From contig NC_134034.1 of NCBI RefSeq assembly GCF_964204645.1, positions 2,512,072-2,576,071 of the forward strand: DNA of 64,000 nucleotides, read 5' to 3'. The position numbers and the translations under genes were made by a program. Below are positions 5,582 through 40,016 of this stretch, one piece after another (the stretch's first letter is position 1; the number at the start of each line of letters is the position of its first letter). The stretch comes from Tubulanus polymorphus. Lineage: Eukaryota > Nemertea > Palaeonemertea > Tubulaniformes > Tubulanidae. The notes below the pieces were generated by a model. That model searched no databases and was not told the origin of the DNA. It saw nothing but the letters and a program-made list of their open reading frames with translations.

Positions 5582-6145
5582 AGTCTACAATCCTATTTCA
5601 CAAATCCTTCGAATGCATCGAGACAAAAATTCTAGACTAAAACTTAAAACTAGCAACAACGAGTCATATATAACAATGCTCAGGAAGAAAAATTCAATAC
5701 ACATTTTACGCACTAAAATATATTAAATATATATGAATATATTTCAAAGCTAAAGTTTCTATAGTGATGTCTATAACATCCCGCATCACAAAAAGCCAAT
5801 TTGCGTTTGGGTGAATAAAACTAAATTAACTTAGCGAGCAAAGCGCGTTTGCGACGTTCACGAATGCCTCCGGTATCACGGGCAAAGTCGTTTGAAGAAA
5901 AGTTCACGGCAAGTTTAGAAACTTCGATACGTCGCTGCTATTTCCGTGCGGATGACAATGCTCGGCAATTACGAGTAACAATAAAAGCTTTTTCGACAAA
6001 AGACATTCTATGCAGCTACAGAATAACGATAAATTAAATTAGCAAGTCGCGACTAGGATCAGGCTAAAAGACAAATAGGAAGGAAACACGTATTTCTATA
6101 GAATAGTCGCAGTTGACGTTTGTTGTTTGATGCGAGTTGTTCGAC
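5582..6145 (+). promoter_or_regulatory. 5' flank of receptor 5' module, copy 1 (repeated at 8885-9448 and 12188-12751)
   Basis: A ~560 bp stretch precedes the ATG in each copy. It includes an AT-rich block with tatattaaatatatatgaat at ~5720-5740 and cgagtcatatataac at ~5660. Promoter role is inferred only from position and TATA-like sequence; no transcription start can be read. A 62-codon frame at 5849-6037 has no recognisable features. Confidence 0.35.
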
Positions 6146-8774
6146 ATGACACGCCTTGAGGATCTCTTCGTTTTCGTGGTTGCTGTAAGCCACGTTCGCA
6201 TCGCACGCGCTGATCGCGCAGGCTCTACCGATGAGGAATCGTCCGTGATGGTCCGTTCGTCTTGTAACAACACTTGGTACCCCGTCGATTCTACGTCCGG
6301 TTACATCGCTTCACCGAAATATCCTTCGTTAGTGCGCGGTGTTGAATGTCGTTGGTTCGTCAATAGCTCTTTACCGGGGACCTTTCACATCAGAGTTTAC
6401 CACGACATCGAGCCGTCAATATTCTGCAGTGATAACTACCTTCTCGTCGGTGAATCTGATCACATATTCTGCGGTGAAGGAGATCATGAAATCCGTCGTA
6501 ACGATTCGATCTCGTTAATGTTCAGTAGTAACGTCAATGGTGCGCGAGGTAGTCGGGTTTATATCGTTTATCGTTACGAACGAAGCCGTTTGAATTTAAG
6601 TCACAACTGTAAAAAAATATATCAGTTTAAAATCAAAAAGTTACAAGCATCGAAAGGGTACAAATTTGATATAACGCAACTTCAATGCCAGCTCTTTTTA
6701 GAATGGATCGGTCTTACGGATAATTCTGCTCTGAATCTGACATTCATAGCTGTTAGCTTTAAGTTATTACGTGCTCCTGAAATAGCTTCAGTTAAAATTC
6801 ATGACGGCTGGAACACGAGTAGTGAACCTATCGGCAATATACATGAACAAACTGGACTACCTCCGGTAACTATTTATACAAAAAGCAACAAGGCCACAAT
6901 CACAGGTTTTCCGTATCATTTCCATTTTCATGTGCGATTGCTAGTTCAAATTTACAAAATATCCGATTGGAACGTCACTAATCCGTTGATTCAGATTTCT
7001 AATAACGAATCGGGAGTGCTCATTTCCGATGACAACAGTTTACACGTAATAACTCGATCAAAACACTTACACTGCTGGTCTATCACAGTGCAGATGTTGC
7101 AGTACGTCGTCTTCAACTGGACACGTGATCTCGTTACTTCCGGTGGCGTCATCGGTGTCTATAAACTAGAAGGGTTACGCGTTGTAGGAACTGATATACT
7201 ACTCGGTTATAACTACCTCGAATCGCTAAGTGTCAAATCTGACGGCTTTCTCGTCGTACTGTGCATATTACTATCGGATCAACTTACGAGGTCTGAAATT
7301 GAAATATTCTATGGAATGGAATCGCTTTCAGCTGCGGATATCAAGTTTTTAACGTGGCGAGTAAGTACACAAATAAACAAACTGTGATATAAATATGTAC
7401 CGCCGATTAAACGCTTCAAACGAAAAAATCATAATTTCTAACGACTTTTGTTATCTTTTTCTGCAGCCTGTGGATCTTTTTCCACCTTTTCGAATGTTTC
7501 CGACGAAAAACAAACCGACGATGACGTATCGAGTGGTTAGAATAGAGTTCACATCGAAAGTCGATATTTCTGACTACGATTTTCGCATGTTGGTTTTATC
7601 TGAGAATTGCGAACGAGCCGGATTTTACATATACGACGGAGGTAATTTGACGGCTAGACGCTACGGACCGTATTGTCCTAGTTCAAATAGATACGACCGT
7701 AACGTCGTCAGTCTGATTACATCAGGTGGCGCGGTTACTATAGTAGCGTTCGCTTATAACTGGGACGGACGGTTGACGGAAAATAGCTTCCATGACAATC
7801 TAAAATTCCAACCGACGGACTGTACGGGGTACGTTCTACAGGAAGGAGAGAGTCGGATAAATATGACGTCACACTGTCTCGTCATCACACCTAAAAACCG
7901 ACGCCTGCCGTTAAAGTACATTAACATATTGTCAAAACACGAATATCAAATCGATCGATGTTTTCCTGGAAATCTGGAATCGCCATGCAGCAGATACCTA
8001 GCTTTAACTCGTCAGTTTCTCAATAACAGTCTCGTATTGAACACTGTGACTTTGCGCACTGTCAACAAGTTGTGGCAGTTTCCACTAATAATTAAACTAC
8101 GTCGTAAATGCCAACGTTTGAAGATGGCTGATGCAAATAATATCGGAACGATGTTTCGGGATAAATATGAATGTGGAATCATACAGTCACCGAACTACCC
8201 GGGATCTGCGGGCTTTTTTACACAATCGCGTATCTATCACTTTCGTACCACAACACTTGGATTTCGCGTCGAATACAAATATTACAGATTCGTTATCAAG
8301 TACATGGAAAATACGCCGTGCTCAAAGGCATCTCCACTAGACAAAGATCCGATCATTTTTACTCAAATGGTGAATAGTAGACAACTTAACCAGGCGATCT
8401 GTAGAAACAAATATCCATTACCTGGTAGCATATTTCACAGTTTGAGCTATAATGCTGTCTCCTTCGTGGTAAACGCTAAGGTCCCAACATTTCAAATACA
8501 ATTCACTTTAGAAGAAGAACCACAGATCGACGCGAAAGCCTGTAGTCCGGGATTCTTGGACTCCGGTTATTTTTCTTGCGTGAAATACATCAAACACGAA
8601 CGTCTGAATTGGGAGAATGCTGAATTGTACTGTAGACAGAAGTACGCGGGACATCTTCTCAGCATCAACTCAGAACAGGAGATGATCGCCATCAAAAGAT
8701 TATTCGCTACGAAACTTCTACGACAGGCGTATTCGCAGGAAGCGCTCATAATAATGATCGGATTAAAACTGCAG
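6146..8774 (+). CDS. CUB/C-type-lectin 5' module of GRL101-like receptor, copy 1 (truncated)
   Basis: Exons 6146-7360 and 7467-8774, both phase 0, separated by a 106 bp GT-AG intron. An in-frame TTG lies three codons upstream at 6137, but the ATG at 6146 starts a good signal peptide (LFVFVVAV). It encodes a secreted N-terminal region: CUB domain from ~residue 38 (GYIASPKYPS), weak CUB-like segments, another CUB near residue 641 (GIIQSPNYPG), then the first half of a C-type lectin domain (NWENAELYC). The lectin domain is cut at the donor 8775; without splicing the frame stops at 8873. It could be a dead duplicate, an alternative 5' end spliced to 15674, or an assembly duplicate. Confidence 0.6.
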
Positions 8775-8801
8775 GTAAATTTTATCTTCGAAGCTTGTAA
8801 C

Positions 8802-11800
8802 GAAAATGTGCTGATAAAATTTCTAATGCCTGGTCTTTCTAAGTTCTTTTTCAATTCGAAATGTCTTAGTTGAGCATTAACTGTAGTCTACAATCCTATT
8901 TCACAAATCCTTCGAATGCATCGAGACAAAAATTCTAGACTAAAACTTAAAACTAGCAACAACGAGTCATATATAACAATGCTCAGGAAGAAAAATTCAA
9001 TACACATTTTACGCACTAAAATATATTAAATATATATGAATATATTTCAAAGCTAAAGTTTCTATAGTGATGTCTATAACATCCCGCATCACAAAAAGCC
9101 AATTTGCGTTTGGGTGAATAAAACTAAATTAACTTAGCGAGCAAAGCGCGTTTGCGACGTTCACGAATGCCTCCGGTATCACGGGCAAAGTCGTTTGAAG
9201 AAAAGTTCACGGCAAGTTTAGAAACTTCGATACGTCGCTGCTATTTCCGTGCGGATGACAATGCTCGGCAATTACGAGTAACAATAAAAGCTTTTTCGAC
9301 AAAAGACATTCTATGCAGCTACAGAATAACGATAAATTAAATTAGCAAGTCGCGACTAGGATCAGGCTAAAAGACAAATAGGAAGGAAACACGTATTTCT
9401 ATAGAATAGTCGCAGTTGACGTTTGTTGTTTGATGCGAGTTGTTCGACATGACACGCCTTGAGGATCTCTTCGTTTTCGTGGTTGCTGTAAGCCACGTTC
9501 GCATCGCACGCGCTGATCGCGCAGGCTCTACCGATGAGGAATCGTCCGTGATGGTCCGTTCGTCTTGTAACAACACTTGGTACCCCGTCGATTCTACGTC
9601 CGGTTACATCGCTTCACCGAAATATCCTTCGTTAGTGCGCGGTGTTGAATGTCGTTGGTTCGTCAATAGCTCTTTACCGGGGACCTTTCACATCAGAGTT
9701 TACCACGACATCGAGCCGTCAATATTCTGCAGTGATAACTACCTTCTCGTCGGTGAATCTGATCACATATTCTGCGGTGAAGGAGATCATGAAATCCGTC
9801 GTAACGATTCGATCTCGTTAATGTTCAGTAGTAACGTCAATGGTGCGCGAGGTAGTCGGGTTTATATCGTTTATCGTTACGAACGAAGCCGTTTGAATTT
9901 AAGTCACAACTGTAAAAAAATATATCAGTTTAAAATCAAAAAGTTACAAGCATCGAAAGGGTACAAATTTGATATAACGCAACTTCAATGCCAGCTCTTT
10001 TTAGAATGGATCGGTCTTACGGATAATTCTGCTCTGAATCTGACATTCATAGCTGTTAGCTTTAAGTTATTACGTGCTCCTGAAATAGCTTCAGTTAAAA
10101 TTCATGACGGCTGGAACACGAGTAGTGAACCTATCGGCAATATACATGAACAAACTGGACTACCTCCGGTAACTATTTATACAAAAAGCAACAAGGCCAC
10201 AATCACAGGTTTTCCGTATCATTTCCATTTTCATGTGCGATTGCTAGTTCAAATTTACAAAATATCCGATTGGAACGTCACTAATCCGTTGATTCAGATT
10301 TCTAATAACGAATCGGGAGTGCTCATTTCCGATGACAACAGTTTACACGTAATAACTCGATCAAAACACTTACACTGCTGGTCTATCACAGTGCAGATGT
10401 TGCAGTACGTCGTCTTCAACTGGACACGTGATCTCGTTACTTCCGGTGGCGTCATCGGTGTCTATAAACTAGAAGGGTTACGCGTTGTAGGAACTGATAT
10501 ACTACTCGGTTATAACTACCTCGAATCGCTAAGTGTCAAATCTGACGGCTTTCTCGTCGTACTGTGCATATTACTATCGGATCAACTTACGAGGTCTGAA
10601 ATTGAAATATTCTATGGAATGGAATCGCTTTCAGCTGCGGATATCAAGTTTTTAACGTGGCGAGTAAGTACACAAATAAACAAACTGTGATATAAATATG
10701 TACCGCCGATTAAACGCTTCAAACGAAAAAATCATAATTTCTAACGACTTTTGTTATCTTTTTCTGCAGCCTGTGGATCTTTTTCCACCTTTTCGAATGT
10801 TTCCGACGAAAAACAAACCGACGATGACGTATCGAGTGGTTAGAATAGAGTTCACATCGAAAGTCGATATTTCTGACTACGATTTTCGCATGTTGGTTTT
10901 ATCTGAGAATTGCGAACGAGCCGGATTTTACATATACGACGGAGGTAATTTGACGGCTAGACGCTACGGACCGTATTGTCCTAGTTCAAATAGATACGAC
11001 CGTAACGTCGTCAGTCTGATTACATCAGGTGGCGCGGTTACTATAGTAGCGTTCGCTTATAACTGGGACGGACGGTTGACGGAAAATAGCTTCCATGACA
11101 ATCTAAAATTCCAACCGACGGACTGTACGGGGTACGTTCTACAGGAAGGAGAGAGTCGGATAAATATGACGTCACACTGTCTCGTCATCACACCTAAAAA
11201 CCGACGCCTGCCGTTAAAGTACATTAACATATTGTCAAAACACGAATATCAAATCGATCGATGTTTTCCTGGAAATCTGGAATCGCCATGCAGCAGATAC
11301 CTAGCTTTAACTCGTCAGTTTCTCAATAACAGTCTCGTATTGAACACTGTGACTTTGCGCACTGTCAACAAGTTGTGGCAGTTTCCACTAATAATTAAAC
11401 TACGTCGTAAATGCCAACGTTTGAAGATGGCTGATGCAAATAATATCGGAACGATGTTTCGGGATAAATATGAATGTGGAATCATACAGTCACCGAACTA
11501 CCCGGGATCTGCGGGCTTTTTTACACAATCGCGTATCTATCACTTTCGTACCACAACACTTGGATTTCGCGTCGAATACAAATATTACAGATTCGTTATC
11601 AAGTACATGGAAAATACGCCGTGCTCAAAGGCATCTCCACTAGACAAAGATCCGATCATTTTTACTCAAATGGTGAATAGTAGACAACTTAACCAGGCGA
11701 TCTGTAGAAACAAATATCCATTACCTGGTAGCATATTTCACAGTTTGAGCTATAATGCTGTCTCCTTCGTGGTAAACGCTAAGGTCCCAACATTTCAAAT

Positions 11801-12104
11801 ACAATTCACTTTAGAAGAAGAACCACAGATCGACGCGAAAGCCTGTAGTCCGGGATTCTTGGACTCCGGTTATTTTTCTTGCGTGAAATACATCAAACAC
11901 GAACGTCTGAATTGGGAGAATGCTGAATTGTACTGTAGACAGAAGTACGCGGGACATCTTCTCAGCATCAACTCAGAACAGGAGATGATCGCCATCAAAA
12001 GATTATTCGCTACGAAACTTCTACGACAGGCGTATTCGCAGGAAGCGCTCATAATAATGATCGGATTAAAACTGCAGGTAAATTTTATCTTCGAAGCTTG
12101 TAAC
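8802..12104 (+). repeat. 3303 bp tandem duplication, copy 2
   Basis: Offset exactly 3303 bp from copy 1; all landmarks (start codon, splice sites, donor at the 3' edge, gtaac junction at 12100-12104) recur at that offset. Confidence 0.95.
9449..12077 (+). CDS. CUB/C-type-lectin 5' module of GRL101-like receptor, copy 2 (truncated)
   Basis: Exons 9449-10663 and 10770-12077, identical in translation to copy 1. The donor at 12078 is intact; without it the frame runs to a stop at 12176. The next splice acceptor in order is at copy 3 exon 2 (14073), which is in the same phase (0). A transcript could therefore in principle chain exon 2 copies in frame. No evidence in the sequence tells whether it is expressed separately. 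Confidence 0.6.
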
Positions 12105-15100
12105 GAAAATGTGCTGATAAAATTTCTAATGCCTGGTCTTTCTAAGTTCTTTTTCAATTCGAAATGTCTTAGTTGAGCATTAACTGTAGTCTACAATCCT
12201 ATTTCACAAATCCTTCGAATGCATCGAGACAAAAATTCTAGACTAAAACTTAAAACTAGCAACAACGAGTCATATATAACAATGCTCAGGAAGAAAAATT
12301 CAATACACATTTTACGCACTAAAATATATTAAATATATATGAATATATTTCAAAGCTAAAGTTTCTATAGTGATGTCTATAACATCCCGCATCACAAAAA
12401 GCCAATTTGCGTTTGGGTGAATAAAACTAAATTAACTTAGCGAGCAAAGCGCGTTTGCGACGTTCACGAATGCCTCCGGTATCACGGGCAAAGTCGTTTG
12501 AAGAAAAGTTCACGGCAAGTTTAGAAACTTCGATACGTCGCTGCTATTTCCGTGCGGATGACAATGCTCGGCAATTACGAGTAACAATAAAAGCTTTTTC
12601 GACAAAAGACATTCTATGCAGCTACAGAATAACGATAAATTAAATTAGCAAGTCGCGACTAGGATCAGGCTAAAAGACAAATAGGAAGGAAACACGTATT
12701 TCTATAGAATAGTCGCAGTTGACGTTTGTTGTTTGATGCGAGTTGTTCGACATGACACGCCTTGAGGATCTCTTCGTTTTCGTGGTTGCTGTAAGCCACG
12801 TTCGCATCGCACGCGCTGATCGCGCAGGCTCTACCGATGAGGAATCGTCCGTGATGGTCCGTTCGTCTTGTAACAACACTTGGTACCCCGTCGATTCTAC
12901 GTCCGGTTACATCGCTTCACCGAAATATCCTTCGTTAGTGCGCGGTGTTGAATGTCGTTGGTTCGTCAATAGCTCTTTACCGGGGACCTTTCACATCAGA
13001 GTTTACCACGACATCGAGCCGTCAATATTCTGCAGTGATAACTACCTTCTCGTCGGTGAATCTGATCACATATTCTGCGGTGAAGGAGATCATGAAATCC
13101 GTCGTAACGATTCGATCTCGTTAATGTTCAGTAGTAACGTCAATGGTGCGCGAGGTAGTCGGGTTTATATCGTTTATCGTTACGAACGAAGCCGTTTGAA
13201 TTTAAGTCACAACTGTAAAAAAATATATCAGTTTAAAATCAAAAAGTTACAAGCATCGAAAGGGTACAAATTTGATATAACGCAACTTCAATGCCAGCTC
13301 TTTTTAGAATGGATCGGTCTTACGGATAATTCTGCTCTGAATCTGACATTCATAGCTGTTAGCTTTAAGTTATTACGTGCTCCTGAAATAGCTTCAGTTA
13401 AAATTCATGACGGCTGGAACACGAGTAGTGAACCTATCGGCAATATACATGAACAAACTGGACTACCTCCGGTAACTATTTATACAAAAAGCAACAAGGC
13501 CACAATCACAGGTTTTCCGTATCATTTCCATTTTCATGTGCGATTGCTAGTTCAAATTTACAAAATATCCGATTGGAACGTCACTAATCCGTTGATTCAG
13601 ATTTCTAATAACGAATCGGGAGTGCTCATTTCCGATGACAACAGTTTACACGTAATAACTCGATCAAAACACTTACACTGCTGGTCTATCACAGTGCAGA
13701 TGTTGCAGTACGTCGTCTTCAACTGGACACGTGATCTCGTTACTTCCGGTGGCGTCATCGGTGTCTATAAACTAGAAGGGTTACGCGTTGTAGGAACTGA
13801 TATACTACTCGGTTATAACTACCTCGAATCGCTAAGTGTCAAATCTGACGGCTTTCTCGTCGTACTGTGCATATTACTATCGGATCAACTTACGAGGTCT
13901 GAAATTGAAATATTCTATGGAATGGAATCGCTTTCAGCTGCGGATATCAAGTTTTTAACGTGGCGAGTAAGTACACAAATAAACAAACTGTGATATAAAT
14001 ATGTACCGCCGATTAAACGCTTCAAACGAAAAAATCATAATTTCTAACGACTTTTGTTATCTTTTTCTGCAGCCTGTGGATCTTTTTCCACCTTTTCGAA
14101 TGTTTCCGACGAAAAACAAACCGACGATGACGTATCGAGTGGTTAGAATAGAGTTCACATCGAAAGTCGATATTTCTGACTACGATTTTCGCATGTTGGT
14201 TTTATCTGAGAATTGCGAACGAGCCGGATTTTACATATACGACGGAGGTAATTTGACGGCTAGACGCTACGGACCGTATTGTCCTAGTTCAAATAGATAC
14301 GACCGTAACGTCGTCAGTCTGATTACATCAGGTGGCGCGGTTACTATAGTAGCGTTCGCTTATAACTGGGACGGACGGTTGACGGAAAATAGCTTCCATG
14401 ACAATCTAAAATTCCAACCGACGGACTGTACGGGGTACGTTCTACAGGAAGGAGAGAGTCGGATAAATATGACGTCACACTGTCTCGTCATCACACCTAA
14501 AAACCGACGCCTGCCGTTAAAGTACATTAACATATTGTCAAAACACGAATATCAAATCGATCGATGTTTTCCTGGAAATCTGGAATCGCCATGCAGCAGA
14601 TACCTAGCTTTAACTCGTCAGTTTCTCAATAACAGTCTCGTATTGAACACTGTGACTTTGCGCACTGTCAACAAGTTGTGGCAGTTTCCACTAATAATTA
14701 AACTACGTCGTAAATGCCAACGTTTGAAGATGGCTGATGCAAATAATATCGGAACGATGTTTCGGGATAAATATGAATGTGGAATCATACAGTCACCGAA
14801 CTACCCGGGATCTGCGGGCTTTTTTACACAATCGCGTATCTATCACTTTCGTACCACAACACTTGGATTTCGCGTCGAATACAAATATTACAGATTCGTT
14901 ATCAAGTACATGGAAAATACGCCGTGCTCAAAGGCATCTCCACTAGACAAAGATCCGATCATTTTTACTCAAATGGTGAATAGTAGACAACTTAACCAGG
15001 CGATCTGTAGAAACAAATATCCATTACCTGGTAGCATATTTCACAGTTTGAGCTATAATGCTGTCTCCTTCGTGGTAAACGCTAAGGTCCCAACATTTCA

Positions 15101-15402
15101 AATACAATTCACTTTAGAAGAAGAACCACAGATCGACGCGAAAGCCTGTAGTCCGGGATTCTTGGACTCCGGTTATTTTTCTTGCGTGAAATACATCAAA
15201 CACGAACGTCTGAATTGGGAGAATGCTGAATTGTACTGTAGACAGAAGTACGCGGGACATCTTCTCAGCATCAACTCAGAACAGGAGATGATCGCCATCA
15301 AAAGATTATTCGCTACGAAACTTCTACGACAGGCGTATTCGCAGGAAGCGCTCATAATAATGATCGGATTAAAACTGCAGGTAAATTTTATCTTCGAAGC
15401 TT
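12105..15402 (+). repeat. 3303 bp tandem duplication, copy 3 (joined to the rest of the receptor gene)
   Basis: Same content as copies 1-2, but after gaagctt at 15402 the sequence becomes unique (ctttaatttgaag) and leads to the large downstream exon. It lacks the 5 bp gtaac junction, so it is probably the ancestral right edge. Confidence 0.95.
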
Positions 15403-18400
15403 CTTTAATTTGAAGCTGAAGTAAATGACATTAAGTAATGGAATGTAAACCCACGATATTTGACGAATTTAGAAACGATAAATGAAAATTGGAAAAATGA
15501 GCACGGTTCAACCTGCTAATTGCAACTTTTGTGCAATGCCGTACATATAAAAGTATGCATGCAAAATTTTGCTGATATTTTTATCCAGCCATTCGTTTAT
15601 CGCCATGTACGCCTTCCACCATGGATGCATCCGTATCGAAGATCCCTTATTGCTTTTTCATTCTTTATTACAGCCAGATACCGCTGGTCACTACACATGG
15701 ACTGATGGCAAACCATTGAGCTACACGGAGTGGTACAGACCTACAAATAACGAAACAATACCCGAAGTTATTCAGGGATTGATATCTCCTCTACGAAAAC
15801 AGCCGAATAATGACGTCAATATGCCGTGTACGGCGATGATACTGAATAATCCTCGGGGATCGGCGAACTGGGTTCGATTCCCGTGTTTAATCGAAGAGGT
15901 GCACACGACGTTTGTTTGCGAATCGGATCGCTTTGATGATAAGCAGGATGAAAATCTAACAACGATCGCAAATGATATAGAAACCAATATAATGCGAGAC
16001 GCCATTACGTTCAACTCAACTTGTACTCGAGGCTGGTTAGGTTTAGCTGGACGATGTTATCAAATACTGACTGACTGGAACAAACTCGGTGGTTTAGACG
16101 TAAAAACTGCGACAAAAATGTGTGAGAACATCCGTGGTGAAATAGCTGCGATCACATCTTTTACGGAAAGTGAAATAGAGAATTTGATCACTACGTTCAA
16201 CTATCAACACCAATATGGCGCAGTGCTAGTAAGGGATCGGATGAACGGATTTAGAGCGATACAGCCTTCATTAACCAGGGATGAAATCACATATATTCAT
16301 ACATTAGTTTGGTCCGTTCCAATCATTGATAACACGACAGAAATCGGTGATGTGCATTCTGTGTTGTGTTCGCGCAATGAAACTGGTGAAGAGTTATCTT
16401 CTTTAAGCGGTTGTAAATCGTGGCAGTTTAAATGTAACGATGGACGATGTATCAGCGACCATCGCGTATGTGATACCAGAAACGACTGTCAACACGGTGA
16501 AGATGAACTTAATTGTACGGATATCAATTTGAGCAGTCAGTTCCGTTGCATGGATGGACGAGTTATATCAACGAGTGGTTTATGTGACTTCATACCGGAT
16601 TGTCCTGATGGTTCTGATGAGAACTCGTGTTTTCATCCACCGTGTTTGCCCGATCAATATCGATGTAAAAATGGTCAATGTATACATAGTCCTTACAGAT
16701 GTGACGGTGTCGGGGACTGTTATGACCGCTCGGATGAAATGGGATGCACCGCTCATCCGTGTCAGGGGTTTCTGTGTAACAGTGGAGACTGTATCAGTTC
16801 TCAACTGTATCAGGACGGTGTCGTGGATTGCAGTGGAAGCCTTGAAGAAGACGAATTAGTAACATCAACTAATATAACAGTGGATCCTACGATTCAGTGC
16901 AATAATGATAATCACTGTACGACAAATTTTACAAACCTCTGTGCGGAATTTGATGAACAAAGATGTTCATTCAATTCCCCGCATTGCTATTCTAGACGTC
17001 ACAGATGTGTTTTGGAAAGGATGTCATTTGGCCACCCAGTTTGTAGAAATCTTGAGCACGTTTCGAGATGTCAAGAATTTCAATGTCCAGCTGGCACTGT
17101 TAAATGTCCCTCGTCGTACTGTATACCAATCAGACAGGTGTGCGATGGTCAGCCGGACTGTCCCAATGCAGACGATGAGAAAAACTGCATGGCATTTTCA
17201 TGTCCAGGAATGTTTAAATGTGGCGACGAAAATCGATGTATTCCACAATTAGAAGTGTGTGATGGTGTTGTGCATTGTAAAAATACCACTGACGACGAGG
17301 CTTTCTGTAATGTCACTTGTCCTAACCGTTGCAAATGTCAAGGTCATTCTGTTGATTGTAGAAATGTTGGTCTCACTGATATAACTGACCTCATCGCAGC
17401 ATCAACTCGGATTCTAATCTTGTCGAATAACAGAATTCTTTTCAATGTGTCGACGTTTTCTTCCTTCGTTTACCTTCGCGTGCTCAACATATCCTTCAAT
17501 GAATTGTCGTATGCTTTGCCGAACTCATTCTCCAACCTACATAATCTACATACCTTAGACCTTAGATATAATTTCATAACATCTTTACTTGCAAATGCAT
17601 TTATCGGCTTGTATCGTTTGAAGAAACTGTTTCTAACTGGTAATCCAATTCGATATCTAGAAGAAGGAAGCTTTCATGGTCTAATTTCGCTTCAAATTGT
17701 CGATCTTTTCGGACTGCAGGTGTCAGAACTAGGTGCTAATGTGTTTAAAGGTCTATCCTCAATAACTTCATTGAATATCAGCAGCAATCGAATCAAATAT
17801 ATATCGAAATATGCTTTCTCTGGGTTAAGTGAACTCTTGCATCTCGATTTAGCCAATAATTCAAATTACATTTCCACGGAAAGTCGGATTTTCGACAATC
17901 TGACATCATTAGTCTCCCTAACGTCTGATGCTTACAAATTTTGCTGCATGGCTCCGAATGTTGACCAGTGCCTTCCCGAAGCTGATCAATTTTCCTCCTG
18001 TTCTGACCTGATGAGTAACACAGTCCTCAGAGCGATCATCTGGGTCATCGCTGCATTCAGTTTCTTCGCGAACAGTATTGTCATTCTACTTCGAATTCAA
18101 GTATCATCAGCAGAAACGCGAAACAGATCGTCTGACATCCTCATCATGAATCTCGCTGCTTGTGATTTCATGATGTCCATTTATCTATTCTTGATTGCAG
18201 GAGCCGATTATGTTTACAAAGGAGTTTATTACCTGAATTCTGAAATTTGGACGGAAAGTTCGTTGTGTCGTTTTGCCGGAATTTTTGTTACCATCTCATG
18301 TGAAGGCTCTTTGACATTTCTGCTCGTCCTAACACGTCATCGATACTCGAACATTGTCAATCCATTCTCTGATAGCGCGTTCACAACTCCAAAGCATGTC

Positions 18401-18910
18401 ACCAGTTTTTGCTGTATTTGCTGGCTCATTCTGAGTATAATCTCTTTGCTACCGCTGTCACAATCGCCGTACTTCGGTACAAAGTTCTATGGCACTACCG
18501 GAGTTTGTTTACCTATGAACTTGCTGACCACTGACGTCAAAGCCTGGCAGTACTCATTGGCCATTTTCGCCGCGTCAAACTCGGTCATACTTGCTACGAT
18601 AATGGCGACATATGCGCAGATGTACAGACTCGTATCTGGAAGCAGGTCCGGCTCGGGTAGAATTGACCCTACTGAACTAGTTTTGGCACGCAGGAGTTTG
18701 GTGATTAATTTGTGTAATCTATTTTGCTGGCTGCCGATAATCACTGTTCAGTTTTGCGCGGTGTTTCGGGTAAAAATACCGAATCAGGTGGCGGCTTGGC
18801 TGGCGGTTCTTTTCTTACCGATCAACTCGTCTCTCAATCCCATTCTTTACACCATCCTGACTATCGATTTGAAATCCATACAAGCAAAATACAAACGACG
18901 TCGTCACTAA
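12752..18910 (+). CDS. GRL101-like multidomain G-protein-coupled receptor (CUB, C-type lectin, LDLR-A, LRR, 7TM)
   Basis: Exons 12752-13966, 14073-15380 and 15674-18910 (all phase 0) give 1919 residues. Order: signal peptide; CUB at ~38-145; weak CUB-like regions; CUB ~641-760; C-type lectin 1 ~764-923 (continuing GHYTWTDGKPLSYTEW); C-type lectin 2 ~957-1073 (GWLGLAGRCYQI); six LDLR-A repeats ~1088-1387, the second and fourth lacking cysteines; LRR N-cap CPNRCKC and about six LRRs to ~1600; a CCM...CSDLM hinge; seven TMs from ~1626 with LTRHRY at TM3 and NPILY in TM7. The LDLR-A/LRR/7TM part is the layout of snail GRL101 and type-C LGRs (relaxin-receptor relatives). Plasma-membrane receptor; ligand unknown. 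AATAAA at 19208-19213. The CUB and lectin additions are unusual; the downstream half is the firmest part. Confidence 0.88.
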
Positions 18911-28700: not shown

Positions 28701-31634
28701 TTAATGATGTGGGTTAATCCGATATAATGCAGTTGAAATGTGGCATATATACATATATATTTTGAGCAGTTTGATAAGGTAATTCGACTGGTTCGATATG
28801 GTTATTCGACTTGTAAATGTGATATATTTCAAACGGAATTTTTTAAATCGGATGATAAGCGGTGACAAATCGATTGCTGGGTTCACCATCATTTTCGTTT
28901 TTTGCGCGCGCCATTTTTTGAAACAATTTTTTGCTTGACGAGTACTCAGATTACGAGGAATACTTGCCCTTCCAGTTACAGAAGGAGGGGCATCTTCGTC
29001 ATTTTCAGTTGTCTGTAATTCTAAAGGATAAAGTTTTGACAAAGGGCGGTTTGTTACTCCGCTAGCAGTCCTCAACGAGCAGGACCGGACACGACCATCC
29101 TGTCCCCTGAACAATTCAACAATTACACCTAAACGCCAGCTGGTACGAGGACCCTCATCGTGTATCAAAACTACCGATCCCGTTTTAACTATTTCTCTGT
29201 TATCACCGACATTCCTATGAAATTCCCTAAGACCAGTTAGATATTCTGTACGCCAACGTTCCCAAAACTGACGTACTAACGACACAATAAAATTGTATCT
29301 GTTACTTAGTGAACGGCTATTGACAACAAATTCCGGGTCATTAATATCAGCATCACCTATCGGTAGAGAGGTGATGCGCCTCCCGCACATTAAATGAGAT
29401 GGAGTCAAAGGACCCAAATCGTTTATATCGCTCGATATATACATCAGTGGACGATCATTCAAGATCGCCTCTATTTCTGTAACCACAGTTACGAATTCAA
29501 CATAGGTCAAAAAAGAACGCCCTAGGATCTTTTTAATGCAACCCTTTGTAATACCTACGAGTCGCTCCCAGAACCCTCCCTGCCAAGGAGCTCTCTTAGA
29601 AATGAATTTCCAGTCCACATTGTGCGAGGACAGATAACGCCGAACTATCTCATTTTTGAAAATCTGCCGTAAATGTGTATTGGCACCAACGAACGTAGTG
29701 GCATTGTCGCTCAACATCAACTTTGGCAGGGAGCGTCTGGAAACAAACCTCCTGAAAGCAGAAAGAAAAGTTTCACTTTTGTTATCCGAAACAACTTCAA
29801 GGTGAATTGCGCGACTAACCGCGCACGTAAATAGGGCTATACACACTTTCCCGCCACCTTTCAAAATCATAGGCCCTAAATAATCGACCCCAGTATAATA
29901 AAAGGATGGCACTTCCTCCACTCGGCAATGAGGTAAATGAGGGGGGTCGGGTAGACGGTATGGTTTACCCTGATATTTCCTACAGACGATACAACGACGC
30001 ATAGCAGATTTAACATATTGTCTACACTGAGGTATCCAATAAGTCTCTCAAATTTTGGCAATAGTGGCATCTGTACCCAAATGAGCCACGTTGAAGTGAG
30101 CGTCTCGTGTTACCAAATATGCGAATCTGCTTAACTTCGGAATTAACATAGGATATTTACAATCGTAACTAAGAGGTGCGTTTTTCAAACGCCCTCTACA
30201 CCTGATTATTCCTTCCTTGTCCAAATATAATTGTAGTTGATTCACTACCGAAAATCGTTTCTTAGACGTACCAGATAACACCCGAATTATATCTTTACAA
30301 TATAAATTCTGACAGCTCTTAACCCACAGGATCTTTGCGCGGTCTATCTCGCATGATGATAATTCATCAAAATGCCGTGAACTCGATTTTGTTTTGAGGT
30401 TATGTACAAACCGTAATACGTATGCTGTAACCCGCAGAAGTCCTGTGAGGGAAGAATATGTCTCTATATCTACTACCTTCCCAACATCATAGTCAGAAAT
30501 AACTTCTGAAACATCAAAGGATACAGCATTAGATTCGACATGGTTGGTGTTTACGTGCATGATATTTCCGTCACACTTACTTACTACAGGACGATTGTTT
30601 TCATCGACCAGCCATGGCGGTCCCTTAAACCAGAAGGTGCTACATTGATTAAGTGTTTCACAAGTCACACCACGTGTAATAAGATCTGCAGGGTTTTCTT
30701 CAGATGGACAAAAACCCCAACAACCAATATCAATTAAACGATTTATTTCTGACCTTCGATTTTCTACGAATTGGGATACCTTTTTACCCGACCGTCCTGC
30801 TAACCACCCTAAAACAATCTGACTATCGGACCAGGCGAAAATATTCAATGGCCGACATAACGCAGGTTCAAGTGACTTTGCAACGTGAGATACAAGACGT
30901 GCTCCTATCACTGCAGCGCACAATTCTAATTGAGGAATTGATAATTTCTTAATAGGTGCCACACGAGATTTGGACATCAAAAAGGCGGATTGATCAACGC
31001 AACGGATATATGTTACTGCCCCGAAAGCCCGTGAACTACTGTCACAAAATACGTGAAGTTCTGGTTGGCCGGAAACCAACATGGCAGAATCAATTAGTTG
31101 ACGCGGAAATTCAAATGTAGACGCTTCTCGCATATCTTTTACTACAGAACTCCATCTACTACAAAGTTCGCTGGACAGACTATCGTCCCAATCCACAGAA
31201 AGTTTCCAAATGTCTTGCATTAGAATTTTCGATTGAACTGTAATTGGTGTAAGAAAACCGAACGGATCATAGACACTGGAAATATTACTGAGAATCAAAC
31301 GTTTAGTAATAGGTACTACACTGGAAAGGTTGTCATAAAGCAGTGTAAGACTGTCATGGTTGACATCCCACTTTATACCCAAAACTTTGACACTGTTTGA
31401 CCGTTCCAAAACAGCCTCCCTCCCAGCAGCTTCACGCAGATCTGAGCAAGTCGACGACCAACACCGTAGATTAAAGTTCGCACCCGCAAAAAGAGTGCGA
31501 GAAGCTGAATACAAATCAACACAACCAGAAATGCTGTCGACGCTAGTGACGATATTATCTACATAAAGATCGCGTAGAAGCTGCTGTGAAATACAACCAT
31601 ATACGCCGAATGATATATTCGCGACACATGCCAC
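28701..31634 (-). pseudogene. BEL/Pao LTR-retrotransposon pol fragment (RT end, RNase H, integrase)
   Basis: Minus-strand frame beginning within the reverse transcriptase near the catalytic motif (LYVDN, altered from YVDD). It continues through the BEL-type connection and RNase H (VFCDSSSRAFGA, AWSDSQIVLGWL), the integrase zinc-binding region (HFNVAH ... CIVC) and the integrase core (GVDYLGP, LSDNATTFVG, GGFWERLVG). A single in-frame TGA at 30048-30050 breaks the frame. Gag, protease and most of the RT are missing. Identification is firm at family level; the copy is dead. Confidence 0.9.
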
Positions 31635-31745
31635 ATTTCATTTTCCGATGTGATAAAATTCTAACTAACTGCTTTCAGATTAACCCACATCATTAAACCT
31701 CATTTGTCATATTGTCGGCGTATAATTGTAATACAGGGCATCGTC

Positions 31746-33111: not shown

Positions 33112-36100
33112 ATGGCTAACTCTACGGGTCATCATCGACAAAATGAAAGCCAGGAAATTAAGACGATGCAGCTCTGTGAGTATAACGATACAAACAGTTA
33201 CGCAGACGTGAGTTTTTTGGATATCTCGGGGTCGTTTTCAATCTAACTAACCTTGTGGAAACGTTTTCTTGCGCGAGGCTCGCACGCGGGTGACTCCGAG
33301 CAAAATGTAGCTATCGGTTGCCCGGCCGCGACGTTATGACGTCATGCGGTCATTTAATCTCATTTAAAAAACTTTGCTTGTTATGAATATAGATTTGTTC
33401 CAGAAACAGAACGTATATGTCATGATCTGTTTGAAGAAAACCCACAATATGGAGAAAAGAGTAGTTGACCTTTTTCAAAAACTAAGATAGAGTGACGTTT
33501 AAACTCTATTGTGTTTAATGACGATGATCTTCTTGTAAAGCCAGATCCCGAGCCAGGTCGTCACGGGTGGGCCCTACTTAACAGCTAGAGTTACCCTCCT
33601 CACCCCTGTGTCGCCACAACAGGAGTACGTTTTTTTTTCAATATTCTTATCATAACCATTCAAAACGATAATATCATTCAAATTCATCGATTTTTCGGTC
33701 GTGATTCTATTTTTCAGATTCCGAAGTTGACCGAATTTACAACGATCTGGAAGAGGTAGAATCTTAATTCGGTCGTTAGTCGGGGCGAGGCCCGAAGTAT
33801 ATATATACCTATGCTATTTCGTAATTTTCGGTATTTTTTCATGTGTAGATGGGTTACGCTCGAGCTGACCAACTGAACGTTGAAGACGTGTCAAAATTCG
33901 ATCATTACCACTACTACGGCACGGACGCGATCGACGAGGCCATCGCTAAGTTGAACATAACGTAAGTCCGGCTGTTTTCAGGCCCGTACCGAGGTGGTTC
34001 GGGGGTAGCGATCGACCTAAAATTTTCAAAATAATTTCTAGAAAGTCAATGCTTAAAGATCTAGGTCAAAATCTTTCGAAATTTGGTGACAATGTCCTTT
34101 TATGGAGCGGGGTAAATTCATTTCATTCTAAAATGATTTACGTATTCATTTTATATATATAACGCGGTTTTTTGAAATCGAAGGACATTATTGGCAGTTT
34201 GATGTTCCATTTCATTTAGACGTCGTAGGCCTATTCTTCGCGGATGGAGAGACTATAAATTGGGAGTGTAATTAAACTTTCGATCTCCAGAGGCACTGTA
34301 CGAACAGCCCTGGCTCAACGATATTCGCGCTTAAAAAACAACCATATCTAACTTCTAAGCGAAACTCATTATTCATGGAAAAACCGTGTCAAAGCAAAAT
34401 TCAGGCTACAACTGGTATGAAAACTATGCGTGCGAATGATAAAGAGTGGACCGTTTGTCATGGGCTGGAAACCGGTTTTTAAAAGGCTGCGCAAAGGCGA
34501 TTTATGGGTATATTTGAATCATGACGGATCTCTTTAGATTCTACTACTTCGTTTAGGCACGATTCTTTATGAGCCATTTTCAAAACTAAGAAAGTTATGA
34601 CGCGTCGAGTCAATACTGATAAGCCATTTTCAAAACTGATTTAACCATACGTCCATAAGAACAGTTGCAGTGTGACAGTGGCCCAGTTTAGTGGAGCACA
34701 TGACTAGCACTTAGATCAGAAGTGCGAGTGCCTTGTCGTTAGACAGTTCCCGGTCTCCACGCATGATATCTGAATGGTACGACTAAATGTATCCATGGCC
34801 AATGAATCGAAAAGTCCGCAGTTCTGGGTTTAAAAAAAACACCATCGGTTTCGACGGGTTTTACTCGGGTCTACATTGTTTTTTTGACGATATTCGTCAA
34901 TTCTGATTGGCGATCCATCGTCGTTTCAACGTTGTGTTCAACCAACTGTACTAAAATAGATTGCTACTGATCTAATCACTCTAAGAAACGTCAACGTAGA
35001 AAACCAATGTGCGTCGCAGACACACGATGGCATGCAACCAAGGCTGCTTTTTCACTGATTATCACTAGCGTTTTCTAGCTCAACTACATTTACGTTGAAA
35101 TATATTTCCTAGGTCTGAAAGCTCCGTTTTGGACATCGGCTCCGGACTGGGCGGCACCAGTCGCTATTTGGCGCACAAAACCGGATGTCACGTGACGGCT
35201 GTAGAACTGCAATCGGATTTGAACGACGTGGCACGTGACCTGACGATTCGGTGCGGACTGGCTCCGCGTGTTCGGCACATCTGCGCCAACATCCTCGACG
35301 ACCAACATTTGAATTTAGGTTCGTTGCAAAAGTTTATATTGTCATATATCAAATCGAAGTCGAATCGATTTTACTTAATTCAAGAAAAAACTTTTAAATC
35401 CAACCCAAACGATTTGAATAGCCATTATTTTTCATTTCGATATCATAATTGAGTTTCAATTAATTAATTCTAAATTCTTGTTTTAATATTCTAACTGATT
35501 AGGCATATTTTTCTGTGGCCTCTTACGTTCCTTAAAAGTGTACTGGGCCCATGACGAGATGTAAGTCCAAAATAGACTTAAATCTTAATACTTGTCTTAA
35601 GTTGTTAGATTGGCTATAAGATGCTGTTTGGCTGGTTTTGAATCGAAAGCATGACTGCGCAAATACAGGCCCTGATTTTCGAGTCCACTCTCGATAGAAT
35701 ATACCGACCTGTCTAAGCAGCTACTTTTTGATTATCACGCATTGTATTGACCGTCAAAAAATGTCATTGAATTTCTTTCTGAAGGACAATTCGACTTCGT
35801 GGTGAGCTGGTTGGTATATCTGCACATAGACGACAAGGATAAACTATTCGCTACGTGTTACAAACATTTAAAACCAGCGGGAAAAATGTACGTATAAAAA
35901 TGAAATTTTTTATGAAATCTTTATATTTCTTATTTATTGGTCACTTACCACGGACTTAGAAACGACGGGGCTTGAAACGCGGCGTTAGATCGAAGAATCC
36001 GCCTGTCGACGCGTAGCTACGCTGAGAAACTTCCGATTAGAGTCCGTGGTCTGACATGTCGTACCTGTTGGGCTCTTCCCTGATTGAGGCCTACAATCAT

Positions 36101-39093
36101 CTAGTACTCACAATCACGTGTATTTTACCCATATATAATGATATGTCTCAGGTACATCGAAGATTTTTTCTCACTCGGTCAAATGTCACCGGACGAACTG
36201 AGCGTTTTGGAAACGGCTGTCAGTTGTCACGGTCTACCGTCAATGACCGGGTACCTTACCCATTTGAAAAACAGCGGGTTTTCCGTAGAAGAGGTGAGAG
36301 AGAGAGAGCGTCCGTGCATCGTCTTATCGTATCGTAGTGCGTGTCGACATTTATTTCAGAGGCACGGCTTAGCAGTAGTTTAGTTTCTGATGCCAGGGGT
36401 GAATCCCAAGATTGCTATTGAAGGTCTTGTGACGTAAGCGGATTTTGATGGTTGTAATAAAGGCGCGCAGTGCAACCTCGTTACAACGAACGTTGCGGAG
36501 ACCTCTCGGCATGGAGAGAGGAGTTGTTAAGTTGGGGGAAACTGTTGAAAGAGTAAGTCTGAGTTTTCAGGGCAGCCATCGGAGCAGTATGAAATTAATT
36601 CAATCATTACTTGGGACAAAATTCTATACGTTATATATCAGATGAATCGTTCTATGCGAGTTCGTTGTAACGAGAACCCACTGCATTTTGATTTTAAAGG
36701 GAAAAATTGATACCTTGTTTCTCCGCCTGCTGAGCTTAAGTTGACCCGGCCGCCTATCTACCCTGTAAATTACTTTTATTGCGATCAAGCTAACAATAAC
36801 AGGCACGGTAGCTATATAGAAATGAACTGATTACAGACTTTATTGCATTTGACAAAATGACCCTGCCAACTAGGAGAAACAAGGTATCAGTCTTGTTTAG
36901 CCTAACTAAGGCTTCGCCTTTGAAAATCGTGTGGATTGGTTTAATGCAGAGAATTCCATAAGATTTCGTATGATAAGGCAGAAAGAAGTTAAGAGTCCAT
37001 TCAGAAATAGGCGACTCAAAACAATTCGTGTCCAAGGCTCTCAAGACCCTCTGGATGCCATAACTCGTAAAAGCTTTATCTAACTATGTAGTACTGGTAA
37101 ATGTTAGTGGTTTTTAGTGGCTTTTTTCGACAGAGTTGAAGAGGGTCTAGTTCCACTGTTGAATCAAATTGAACCCACACAACAGTGGGAACCGGATCCT
37201 GGGTCAAATTAAGCCCACACAACTGTTGAACTGGATCCAGAGATGAATTAAACCCACACAACTGAGGAACTAGGTCCAAAGTCAAATCAAACCCACATAA
37301 CAGTGGAGATGGGTCCAGTGTCAAATTAAACCCACACAACTGTGAATCTAAACCCAGATTCAAACCCTTGTCTGGGTCGTCACCCATTCCTTATAGAACT
37401 GAATCCGGAGCCAGACCCAGCACTACGGTAAAGTAGCACGTATAATGAACATATATCGGTTAGTCTTCTAACGCTTGTCATGCTTCTAACAATTTCCATC
37501 AGGTATATAGAAGATTTGTTCTCGCTGGCAGAACTCTCGCCTAACGAAATGGAATTACTAAGAAACGCTATAAGCTGTCGTATGCTGCCTTCTGGCGATG
37601 TTTATCGAGAAACTTTAAAAAAGGCTGGCCTCGAAGTTGTTGAGGTATGATGAAGATTTGGAAACCATCGATGAAATCACACTCTACCCGTGTCGTGTAA
37701 AGTATATAGAAACCCCAACGCTTAGAATGTTCAAATAAAGTCCGAAATGGTTCCTTTGAACTAGGAATTTCTTGGGTATTACTCCGATGTAGTTGATTCA
37801 ACGCTTCGACAATATCCATAGTCATCTTCGCTGTATTCCTTGAGCAAGTAGTTTATTCAACGTTTCGACTTAATCCTGATAGTCATCTTCAGGAATACTG
37901 TATTCCTTGAGCAAGTAGTTCATTCAACGTTTCAACTATATCCTAATAGTCATCATCTGGAATGCTGTATTCTTTGAGTTACTAGTTTATCCAACGTTTC
38001 GACTATTTCAGGAGTACTGTATTCCTTGAGCTCGTAGCTCATTCAACGTTTCAACTATATCCTAATAGTCATCTTCAGGAATACTGTATTCTTTGAGTTA
38101 CTAGTTTATTCAACGTTTCGACTATATCATAATGGTTATCTCCAGGAATACTGTATTCTGACTTTATTTTATCTGGGCGTTGGATTTTCTATAATGCCCT
38201 AGTGAGAAACTACGATGTCGAAGATTTTTTCGAAAACGATTTTCACGTTCGAAAATCAGTTTAACCGACACTCATGGAATCGTACAATATCCTACCAAAA
38301 CTCAATACATCATGATGTTAATCGGGTCGATTGTTATGAACCGCAAATGTTGTCTATGACCTGGCCTTCGAAACAATAGGGTCAGAAAGTATTTCATCAG
38401 AATAGGGTCAGAAAGCATTTCACCAAAATAGAGAAGGAAAGTATGTTATCTCTCTAAAGGTGAAAAAGTATCTCCAAGTTAAACGAGTTTAATAGGTTAT
38501 CATTGGAGTCGAGAACGTTTATCTCCTGTATTGGACTGGCTCGTTAGGAATAGAAAATAAACCAGAATTTCTGTTGCAAAATCAAGCACGTTTCGACTGT
38601 GGTCGGTCTCCTGTACCGATTCCGGATTCTCTTCTGCCGCGTTCGTTCCAACCTGAATGTTCATAAGCTCTACCTATTTCGGAATAGCGTAGATCCTGAT
38701 AGATTTAACCTGATAGAAGCGGCCGCCAGAGTGAGAATTTGATCCGGAATTACCTTCCCTAAAACCTGCCTAACGACTACCTATAATCCCGGCTTTCCAT
38801 TTTATCTGCTACATTCGAATTTCCGCGCTTAAATTACGTCAGAATTTCGCTTTATTGTAAACTTGAACGAAAGTTAATTCGGCGATTCTTTTTTGCAGTG
38901 GTCTGACGTCACCGCAAGTTGGACACATCATTGCCACGAACGCGTCGGTCTGCACAAGGCGAACAAAGAGAAATACGTGCGCACGCACACCCTGACGTCA
39001 TACGCGGCGTTGGATCATTTTTACAACGCCGTCGATAAGTTATTCAGCGGAGGTAACGTTGGTGGCTGTAAAATCGTGGCTACGAAAGTGTAA
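33112..39093 (+). CDS. SAM-dependent methyltransferase, sarcosine/dimethylglycine N-methyltransferase-like
   Basis: Exons 33112-33175, 33718-33755, 33849-33961, 35113-35318, 35785-35887, one of 36152-36293 or 37503-37644, and 38899-39093 join in frame to 286 residues and stop TAA. The class I Rossmann motif VLDIGSGLGGTSRYL binds S-adenosylmethionine, followed by VTAVELQ (motif with the acidic ribose-binding residue) and FDFVVSWLVYLHI (post-III region). N-terminal SEVDRIYNDLEEMGY...FDHYHYYGTDAID and C-terminal LFSGGNVGG are typical of small-molecule N-methyltransferases related to sarcosine/dimethylglycine and phosphoethanolamine enzymes. Likely cytosolic; possibly betaine synthesis. Substrate uncertain. 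All donors are GT and acceptors AG; the exon 1 donor gtgagt at 33176 was chosen because it restores phase. Contains an alternative exon pair. Confidence 0.82.
36152..36293 (+). CDS. Methyltransferase alternative exon 6a
   Basis: 142 bp exon entering with one base (phase 2) and leaving in phase 0. Encodes YIEDFFSLGQMSPDELSVL... ending GFSVEE, between the LKPAGKM strand and the C-terminal WSDVT exon. Acceptor tgtctcag, donor gtgaga. Same length, phase and sequence family as 37503-37644. Confidence 0.8.
37130..37390 (-). repeat. ~50 bp tandem repeat in methyltransferase intron
   Basis: Five or so diverged copies around cccacacaactgt and gaactggatcc, located between exons 6a and 6b. The motif resembles the opening of the foldback family at 46280 and the HECW intron array. 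Confidence 0.65.
37503..37644 (+). CDS. Methyltransferase alternative exon 6b
   Basis: 142 bp, same phases as 6a. Encodes YIEDLFSLAELSPNEMELL... ending GLEVVE. Acceptor ccatcag, donor gtatga. About half the residues match exon 6a, including the opening YIED-FSL and the ISC/VSC centre. Including both would shift the frame (142 is not a multiple of 3), so they are probably used one at a time. Confidence 0.8.
37838..38165 (+). repeat. ~66 bp tandem repeat in the last methyltransferase intron
   Basis: About five copies with cores caacgtttcgactatatcct and aggaatactgtattc. Non-coding. Confidence 0.75.
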
Positions 39094-39156: not shown

Positions 39157-40016
39157 CATCCTCGCTTGCCAGGGATTGATTGCCGCCCGCCGAGGTTCAC
39201 GCCAGAAAACCCTGGCCGCTGCTGTCAATTACATCGTCCACGATTTCTCGCGCGGACAGGTTCCCGCTCAGCTGCTCAATACATTGACTGGTAGCCGCTG
39301 GAGCGGCAACCTGTTCGCCCAAGCATGAGCGGTGTAAAAGACCAATGAAGGGTTTGCAGTCAGGATTGGTGTTGACGTCTGCTTCGGCGGGAGACGATCA
39401 AAGCAAGCGAGGATGATTTTGGTCGAGAACTATTCTCAAAGTTGTTTTTTTCAAAGACGGTGCAATCAGGTCGGTTAATTGGATATAAACTATATACTAT
39501 AATGAAATTATTTTTTGAAATTAATCACATTATCTCAGGACTCGGGAACCACAATCATGGCTTAAATCTAGTGGTTAAAACAGTCAAAAATTAATTACTC
39601 TCAACTCATGGAGAACCCAGGTGTCGTGATTGTCAACTCGCTGAATTATTTGCTGTACCAATGCAACCGAATAGAAACGAGGTGATGGCTATAGAGACTT
39701 TGCCCCGATATAATGACTACGCAATATTGGGGTCAAAAACAATGATCCACAGAACAGACTCTCGAAGTTTGTAAATCTCCCATTTTCTTTTGTTGTTACG
39801 TGTCCAACACTGGTGGGCAAACAAACTATACGAGGCTGCGTACAAAACAACAACTACGTCACCAGACTTGACTGGTCACCGCCACACCTGACTGCTTGGA
39901 CCTCACTGGCCGCAAATCGATATACGACGTAGTTATGAAATCACGCGTCGCTAGGCCAAGGGGCTGGAGGACGCGAGTTTGTGGAGCGATACCTGACCCC
40001 TGGCAAGCGAGGATGA
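39157..40016. mobile_element. Putative non-autonomous TIR element downstream of the methyltransferase
   Basis: The 18 bp catcctcgcttgccaggg at the left end appears inverted at the right end (ccctggcaagcgaggatg, ~39999-40016). A third, internal inverted copy of the core lies at ~39403-39416. The 860 bp between has no transposase. A 66-codon frame at 39128-39328 crosses the left end and is not convincing as a gene. No target duplication could be defined. Confidence 0.5.

Follow-up and report, generated by a model that had tools for sequence, protein, structure and literature searches.

A methyltransferase gene found once in the genome of Tubulanus polymorphus carries two tandem-duplicated exons that are very probably mutually exclusive

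We analysed a stretch of 64,000 nucleotides (nt) from the nemertean Tubulanus polymorphus (contig NC_134034.1, positions 2,512,072 to 2,576,071; hereafter the window), in which an earlier note had pointed to two homologous exons of a methyltransferase gene as a candidate mutually exclusive pair. Our analysis supports this proposal and adds to it silent-site saturation with a conserved protein, a similar fit of both exons to bacterial relatives, the finding of the gene once in the genome, and a coq-2-like exon pair elsewhere in the same genome. With high confidence we interpret the two exons, called A and B below, as tandem-duplicated, mutually exclusive alternatives in a gene for a small-molecule methyltransferase. 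The gene structure, the homology of the exons, the frame logic, the long constraint on both copies and their similar fit to the family are established at the level of the DNA; from these we infer that both exons are used and that they are rarely joined.

The gene was modelled from genome-wide protein matches and translation. It occupies positions 33112-39093 of the window on the forward strand and has six exon slots, the fifth of which is filled by A or B (Table 1). All of its introns are GT-AG introns, and the N-terminus encoded by exon 1 and the C-terminus encoded by exon 6 aligned with the IKxMKL motif and the C-terminus of bacterial relatives, respectively. Equal lengths, intact AG and GT sites and equal entry and exit phases had been claimed for A and B, and both the sequence and its translation bear this out. 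With slashes marking the exon boundaries, A reads tctcag/GTACATC...GTAGAAGAG/gtgaga and B reads catcag/GTATATA...GTTGTTGAG/gtatga; both encode YIED from their second base, end in GAG and are flanked by cag and gt, and both fit between the phase 2 end of exon 4 and the phase 0 start of exon 6.

Table 1. Exons of the methyltransferase gene (positions in the window) and of the coq-2-like pair (positions in stretch L040). A slash marks an exon boundary.
Feature	Position	Strand	Length (nt)	Description
Exon 1	33112..33207	+		ATG start; MANSTGHH...NSYAD; donor gtgagt; translation and protein match
Exon 2	33849..33961	+		MGYARADQLNVEDVSKFDHYHYYGTDAIDEAIAKLNI; donor gtaagt; protein match and translation
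Exon 3	35113..35318	+		S-adenosylmethionine (SAM)-binding core VLDIGSGLGG...; donor gttcgt; protein match, Pfam and translation
Exon 4	35785..35887	+		QFDFVVSWLVYLHIDDKDKLFATCYKHLKPAGK; ends in phase 2 (AT/G); donor gtacgt; protein match and translation
Exon 5A (A)	36152..36293	+	142	YIEDFFSLGQMSPDELSVLETAVSCHGLPSMTGYLTHLKNSGFSVEE
A-B intron	36294..37502	+	1209	
Exon 5B (B)	37503..37644	+	142	YIEDLFSLAELSPNEMELLRNAISCRMLPSGDVYRETLKKAGLEVVE; homologous alternative to 5A
Exon 6	38899..39093	+		common C-terminal exon including the stop; WSDVTASWTHH...CKIVATKV, then stop; starts in phase 0
coq-2-like exon, first	L040 2474-2604		131	TLNWG, GWSAV
coq-2-like exon, second	L040 3557-3690		134	TFNWG, GWAAV

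The shared exon length is 3 x 47 + 1 nt, and translation with A only or with B only gave an 855-nt coding sequence of 284 amino acids followed by the stop. Joining A to B broke the frame, with a stop at codon 234, inside exon B and 100 nt before the last junction, and skipping both put the stop at codon 205, within exon 6, and gave a truncated protein of 204 residues; the claim that using both exons or neither breaks the frame thus held on translation. A and B are neighbouring internal exons that are alike in sequence, length and reading frame, which are the features by which mutually exclusive exons are recognized in PMC5740500. A frame break on joint inclusion or joint skipping, described there as frequent and not required, is found for this pair as well.

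The two exons had also been described as related yet diverged, and we found 23 of 47 residues and 76 of 142 nucleotides (53.5%) to be identical. The ungapped BLOSUM62 score of the pair is 114, whereas none of 20,000 shuffles of B scored above 27. With a nucleotide identity of only 76/142, an assembly duplicate is an unlikely source of the pair, and a recent duplication of the exon was ruled out on the same ground. The pair escaped a DNA repeat finder that was set to lengths of at least 40. The next-best 47-residue stretch in an ungapped search of the six frames of the window scored only 20, and therefore no third copy was seen at this sensitivity. Exon A DNA had one match in the genome assembly, and a protein search found A and B once each. 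At E <= 1 this search, which can miss weak matches and in which some assembly stretches read as N, returned eight matches, namely seven exon matches of the methyltransferase gene and one match of 29% identity on another contig. Tandem duplication of a whole gene followed by exon loss can leave isolated exons, and B could in principle be the remnant of a second gene that arose in this way. However, the same search detected the other five exons in a single copy, and the phases of B are right for splicing into the surviving gene, so that we consider such an origin scarcely credible.

We further examined the constraint on the two copies. First and second codon positions of A and B are identical at 30/47 and 32/47, respectively, and third positions at 13/47, which is near the random level. 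Pairwise codon analysis by maximum likelihood gave an omega of 0.093, with a 2dlnL of 26.1 against an omega of 1, at a codon-model distance that is saturated and unusable as a date. The silent sites of the pair look saturated while the protein is conserved. In simulations without insertions or deletions we let B drift neutrally from A. For the distances of 1, 1.5, 2 and 3 substitutions per site, with 3000 runs each, no copy combined 23 identical residues with a frame free of stops. Copies of this kind made up 1.5% of the runs at 0.5 per site, and in none of them were the third positions as diverged as in the real pair. Codon positions, omega, simulations and the profile fit described below all place both copies under coding constraint.

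With exon A, the encoded protein scored 55.5 bits against the Pfam model Methyltransf_25 (cut-off 27) and 53.7 bits against Methyltransf_11 (cut-off 21.2), which identifies it as a class I SAM-dependent methyltransferase. The best NCBIfam model was NF041675 (sarcosine/dimethylglycine N-methyltransferase; residues 66-274), with 69.3 bits for isoform A and 83.7 bits for isoform B. The curated cut-off of 550 was not reached and membership was rejected, so that NF041675 and PDB 2o57 represent the same fold family without including this protein. The best PDB sequence matches, obtained with phmmer, were phosphoethanolamine methyltransferases (PMTs).

A scan of genome contigs revealed 12 relatives, all bacterial by title. 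Five of them cover nearly the full length, with 42-44% identity in the best segment; they come from four Omnitrophota contigs and one Hyphomicrobiales metagenome-assembled genome (MAG). L001-L004 were 41-45% identical to the window protein. At E <= 1e-40, a profile search gave matches in 6 of the 285 genomes belonging to the phylum of L001 and in 15 of the 385 belonging to the class of L004. One of the former matches is half-length, and six of the latter are weak (E 1e-40 to 6e-46). The bacterial distribution of the methyltransferase is patchy, and the animal protein is up to 45% identical to Omnitrophota proteins. IMG/VR yielded no relative in one search and one weak relative in another. The family alignment comprised 21 bacterial rows of 38 loci, after omission of duplicates or near-duplicates (L005, L014-L019 and L024), a fragment (L023) and distant or partial loci (L006-L013), and the profile was built from 15 of these rows, with the six more distant ones (L033-L038) additionally removed.

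The relatives L001-L005 (Omnitrophota and Hyphomicrobiales MAGs), L020-L022 and L025-L032 (same phylum and class) have the same N- and C-terminal motifs as the animal protein. In contrast to the animal gene with its two versions of the exon-5 segment, the bacterial genes are single open frames with one such segment, as was found in all 21 aligned rows. Because all of these rows carry one copy, the single segment is probably the ancestral state. A and B are identical at 23/47 residues, and either of them matches any of the 21 rows at no more than 19/47; the two are closer to each other than to the bacterial rows, and therefore they probably arose by duplication within the eukaryote lineage.

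Both isoforms fit the family to a similar degree. The hidden Markov model of the 15 relatives gave 315.5 bits for isoform A and 318.4 bits for isoform B, compared with 251.6 bits without the segment and 267.9 bits for the best of 400 shuffled segments, and of the 21 rows 7 were closer to A and 13 to B, with one tie. The residues of A and B are different at 24 positions out of 47, and among the substitutions that alter charge are E193R, H199R and L208R (A to B). Position 208 is Arg or Lys in 13 of the 15 relatives, which B keeps and A replaces by Leu, and position 216 is Phe in all 15 and Leu in B. Judged by these comparisons, both exons look like family members.

The earlier note had placed the swap of about 47 residues by the substrate pocket, and homology supports this placement. 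In an AlphaFold model of the relative L001 (267 residues, mean predicted local distance difference test score 85.6, five-row alignment), the segment begins inside the strand 150-163, spans the helices 169-179 and 187-196 and ends inside the strand 199-206. Since it starts and ends inside strands, its omission would be hard to tolerate, by an argument put forward in PMC5740500. The best Foldseek matches of the model were PMT structures, with VIA-align Z values of 26.7-28.4 for PDB 4iv0, 3uj6 and 5wp4. The phosphate ligands of PvPMT are Y24, Y157, Y178 and R176, as reported in PMC4357015, and the swapped segment aligns with the stretch that holds Y157, R176 and Y178, three of these four. In phmmer alignments it likewise matches the PfPMT stretch containing Tyr160, Tyr175, Arg179 and Tyr181, which PMC6705855 lists as phosphobase-binding residues (the PfPMT numbering is that of the printed chain plus 8, and the residue types agree). 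Taken together, these alignments lead us to infer that the swap would change the active-site lid on the substrate side. The pairing of lid-helix residues differs between phmmer and MAFFT and gives no single equivalences for Tyr175, Arg179 and Tyr181; both programs set PfPMT Tyr160 opposite Phe in A and Leu in B. At the position of PfPMT Asp128, which we take to be a phosphobase residue, the Asp of PvPMT lies opposite Leu in the window protein. PMTs are the best structural matches of the L001 model, but the phosphobase residues Asp128 and Tyr160 are not shared by our methyltransferase (Leu and Phe/Leu, respectively), and identity as a PMT was rejected.

We scored the splice sites with a scoring matrix. 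Of all GT sites in the window, the B donor ranked among the best 1.5%, ahead of the donors of exons 3 and 4. The acceptors of both A and B scored above that of exon 3, and branch-like motifs for B were found at -17 and -35. A U2/U12 incompatibility was rejected on comparison of the donors with the U12 consensus, as none of gtgagt, gtaagt, gttcgt, gtacgt, gtgaga and gtatga is U12-like. Steric exclusion by crowding of donor and branch point, for which PMC5740500 gives a limit of < 50 bp, was ruled out by the length of the A-B intron. As regards pairing between docking and selector sites, RNAduplex paired nearly full-length strands and was a poor test, and we used a scan of ungapped runs against 40 shuffles. 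Pairing between different introns stayed at shuffle level, with 9, 15 and 27 of 40 shuffles reaching the observed score for the three intron pairs. A run within intron 4 was reached by 1 of 40 shuffles; it links no two introns. The introns flanking A and B were not similar to each other either; this comparison and the pairing scan are crude tests on a single genome.

Some repeats lie in the same introns. The A-B intron contains a 16-nt perfect inverted repeat (36709-36724 and 36873-36888; GATACCTTGTTTCTCC and GGAGAAACAAGGTATC) with 148 nt between its arms. This run was reached by none of the 40 shuffles and links no two introns; it is possibly a small foldback element. Minisatellites flank exon B, with 39-nt units upstream (37164-37364) and 67-nt units downstream (37764-38226).

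By frame logic and translation, only messages with one of the two exons encode the full enzyme. In the human set described in PMC5740500, the frame is the commonest of three safeguards (377 of 629 clusters), and exon-joining reads were reported for 83 of these 377. Under the rule that relates nonsense-mediated decay to the position of a stop before the last junction, the message including both A and B is a candidate for this pathway, because its stop lies 100 nt upstream of that junction. It could be argued that A and B are not exclusive in RNA and are often joined, with the double-inclusion or double-skip message serving as a regulated off switch through decay or truncation, and the failure to find a steric, U12 or clear docking-site mechanism against joining fits this idea. 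However, one intact copy would suffice for such a switch, which leaves unexplained why both exons kept a family-like protein over such divergence. We regard the off switch as very unlikely and favour the use of A and B as alternatives.

Several points weigh against this interpretation. Exon use is predicted, and the pair itself is known, from the DNA of one animal genome, and no direct signal of exclusivity was found among long introns, donors unlike U12 and inter-intron pairing at shuffle level. The B donor (gtatga) scores below the A donor (gtgaga), and the acceptors of A and B are middling for the window (percentiles 0.79 and 0.80). With a profile of the segment only, the leave-one-out scores of the 15 bacterial segments extend from 21.5 to 84.6, and A (46.4) and B (45.0) both fall below the middle of this range. 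Simulations under constraint, with an omega of 0.09 and 3 substitutions per site and with neither a neutral tail nor insertions or deletions, ended at a mean of 27.2 identical residues and 17.5 identical third positions, somewhat less diverged than the real pair. Furthermore, when a neutral tail of 0.05 substitutions per site is added, 76% of the simulated copies remain free of stops, and B may have lost its function very recently.

The last point bears on the possibility that B (or A) is a relic, that is, a former alternative exon that has dropped out of splicing or is being lost. The weaker donor of B and its Leu at position 216, where all 15 close bacterial relatives have Phe, are what such decay might produce. 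In contrast, B has no stop, an equal length, intact splice sites and an omega of 0.09 at silent-site saturation, and its fit to the family is close to that of A. Even a neutral tail of 0.2 substitutions per site interrupts 64% of simulated copies by a stop and leaves 36% stop-free. We therefore consider a relic unlikely, and continue with two intact exons used as alternatives.

We propose that an internal exon of this gene, which encodes a SAM-dependent methyltransferase of small molecules, underwent an ancient tandem duplication, and that A and B would both have been retained under purifying selection as alternatives for one 47-residue slot. The spliceosome would join exon 4 to A or B and then to exon 6. 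Exclusivity would be enforced at the protein level at least by the frame, because double inclusion stops at codon 234 and a double skip truncates the protein to 204 residues. The gene probably yields two forms of the enzyme, which would differ at the presumed substrate-binding site. The swap could alter the active-site lid and, through it, substrate preference or kinetics, as the exon swap of coq-2 does in C. elegans; a change of this kind between the isoforms would be a natural reason for keeping both. Substrate switching is plausible. More tentatively, isoform A (E193, H199, G200 and L208) and isoform B (R193, R199, M200 and R208) of this bacterial-type enzyme might use different small molecules as methyl acceptors, and exon choice may depend on the tissue or on oxygen state, as reported for helminth coq-2. 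If both exons are used, they offer a natural pair of active-site lids in one enzyme, silent-site saturated and both intact, and a bacterial-type methyltransferase would have been diversified in an animal by splicing and not by gene duplication.

Elsewhere in the window, two overlapping long open frames (418 and 498 codons; 476 in the final copy) occur together three times within 6131-15413, at a spacing of 3303 nt, and no Pfam match was found for the two frames of the first copy. A long open frame at 15551-18910 encodes LDL-receptor class A, leucine-rich repeat and rhodopsin-type seven-transmembrane domains, a relaxin-receptor-like architecture, and three further frames at 20736, 23603 and 26781 score just above the seven-transmembrane cut-off. 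A BEL/Pao-type retrotransposon stretch lies on the reverse strand at 28701-31637, with Peptidase_A17, DUF5641 and an integrase match below the cut-off. Just downstream of the methyltransferase gene, a 16-nt perfect inverted repeat (39158-39173 and 39999-40014; ATCCTCGCTTGCCAGG and CCTGGCAAGCGAGGAT; about 825 nt apart) suggests a small insertion with terminal inverted repeats. Rfam gave no match in the window at the gathering threshold.

The exon-swap design is of a known kind, seen here in a gene of no assigned function. To our knowledge, few metabolic enzymes have an active site that is retuned by an exon swap; coq-2 and ketohexokinase are examples. The ketohexokinase isozymes A and C arise from exons 3A and 3C. 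They differ in substrate affinity, as reported in PMC11332825; as proposed for our gene, two isozymes are made by alternative splicing, but the enzyme is unrelated and has been characterized experimentally. Tandem duplicated exon substitutions in human are described in PMC9741552 as rare, mostly ancient and functionally important. Among the leading titles of open-licence PMC text we recognized no report of a methyltransferase family with such an exon pair, which does not amount to its absence in print.

The closest parallel is the coq-2 prenyltransferase of C. elegans, in which mutually exclusive 134-nt exons switch substrates, as RNA and deletion mutants demonstrate (PMC7434440). According to the same source, exon pairs of this type (6a/6e) also occur in other helminths, annelids and molluscs, and the changes of the e-form include Phe-to-Leu and Ala-to-Ser. 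We searched the genome for the UbiA family, which gave five places on C4, C5 and C7, and inspected those on C4 and C5. The C4 stretch (L039) consisted mostly of low-complexity repeats in the part inspected. The C5 stretch (L040; G000:C5:20099000-20106000) contains a homologous exon pair between two UbiA matches, and reading through both exons ran into stops. The residues of the first exon fit the e-form changes published in PMC7434440; the coq-2 label rests on the UbiA match and these residues and not on an orthology test, and a PDB search with this exon alone gave no match. The pair suggests an animal with the rhodoquinone-type coq-2 exon described for helminths, annelids and molluscs and, by the published distribution, one that is worm- or mollusc-like. 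A COX1 search gave no match, and neither did mollusc haemocyanin or annelid linker families, for which the controls were equally silent, so that these searches carry no information on the phylum.

At the level of sequence, this coq-2-like pair serves as a positive control, being of an accepted kind, in the same genome, with a similar signature and less diverged than the methyltransferase pair. Both genes have tandem homologous exons with lengths not divisible by three, in an enzyme acting on small molecules and with the swap near the substrate site. Coq-2 differs in being a prenyltransferase, for which exon usage and the substrate switch have been demonstrated in C. elegans (PMC7434440). The methyltransferase exons are more diverged, with 23/47 residues and 13/47 third positions identical compared with 28/43 and 17/43 in the coq-2-like pair, and they are of exactly equal length (142/142 compared with 131/134 nt).

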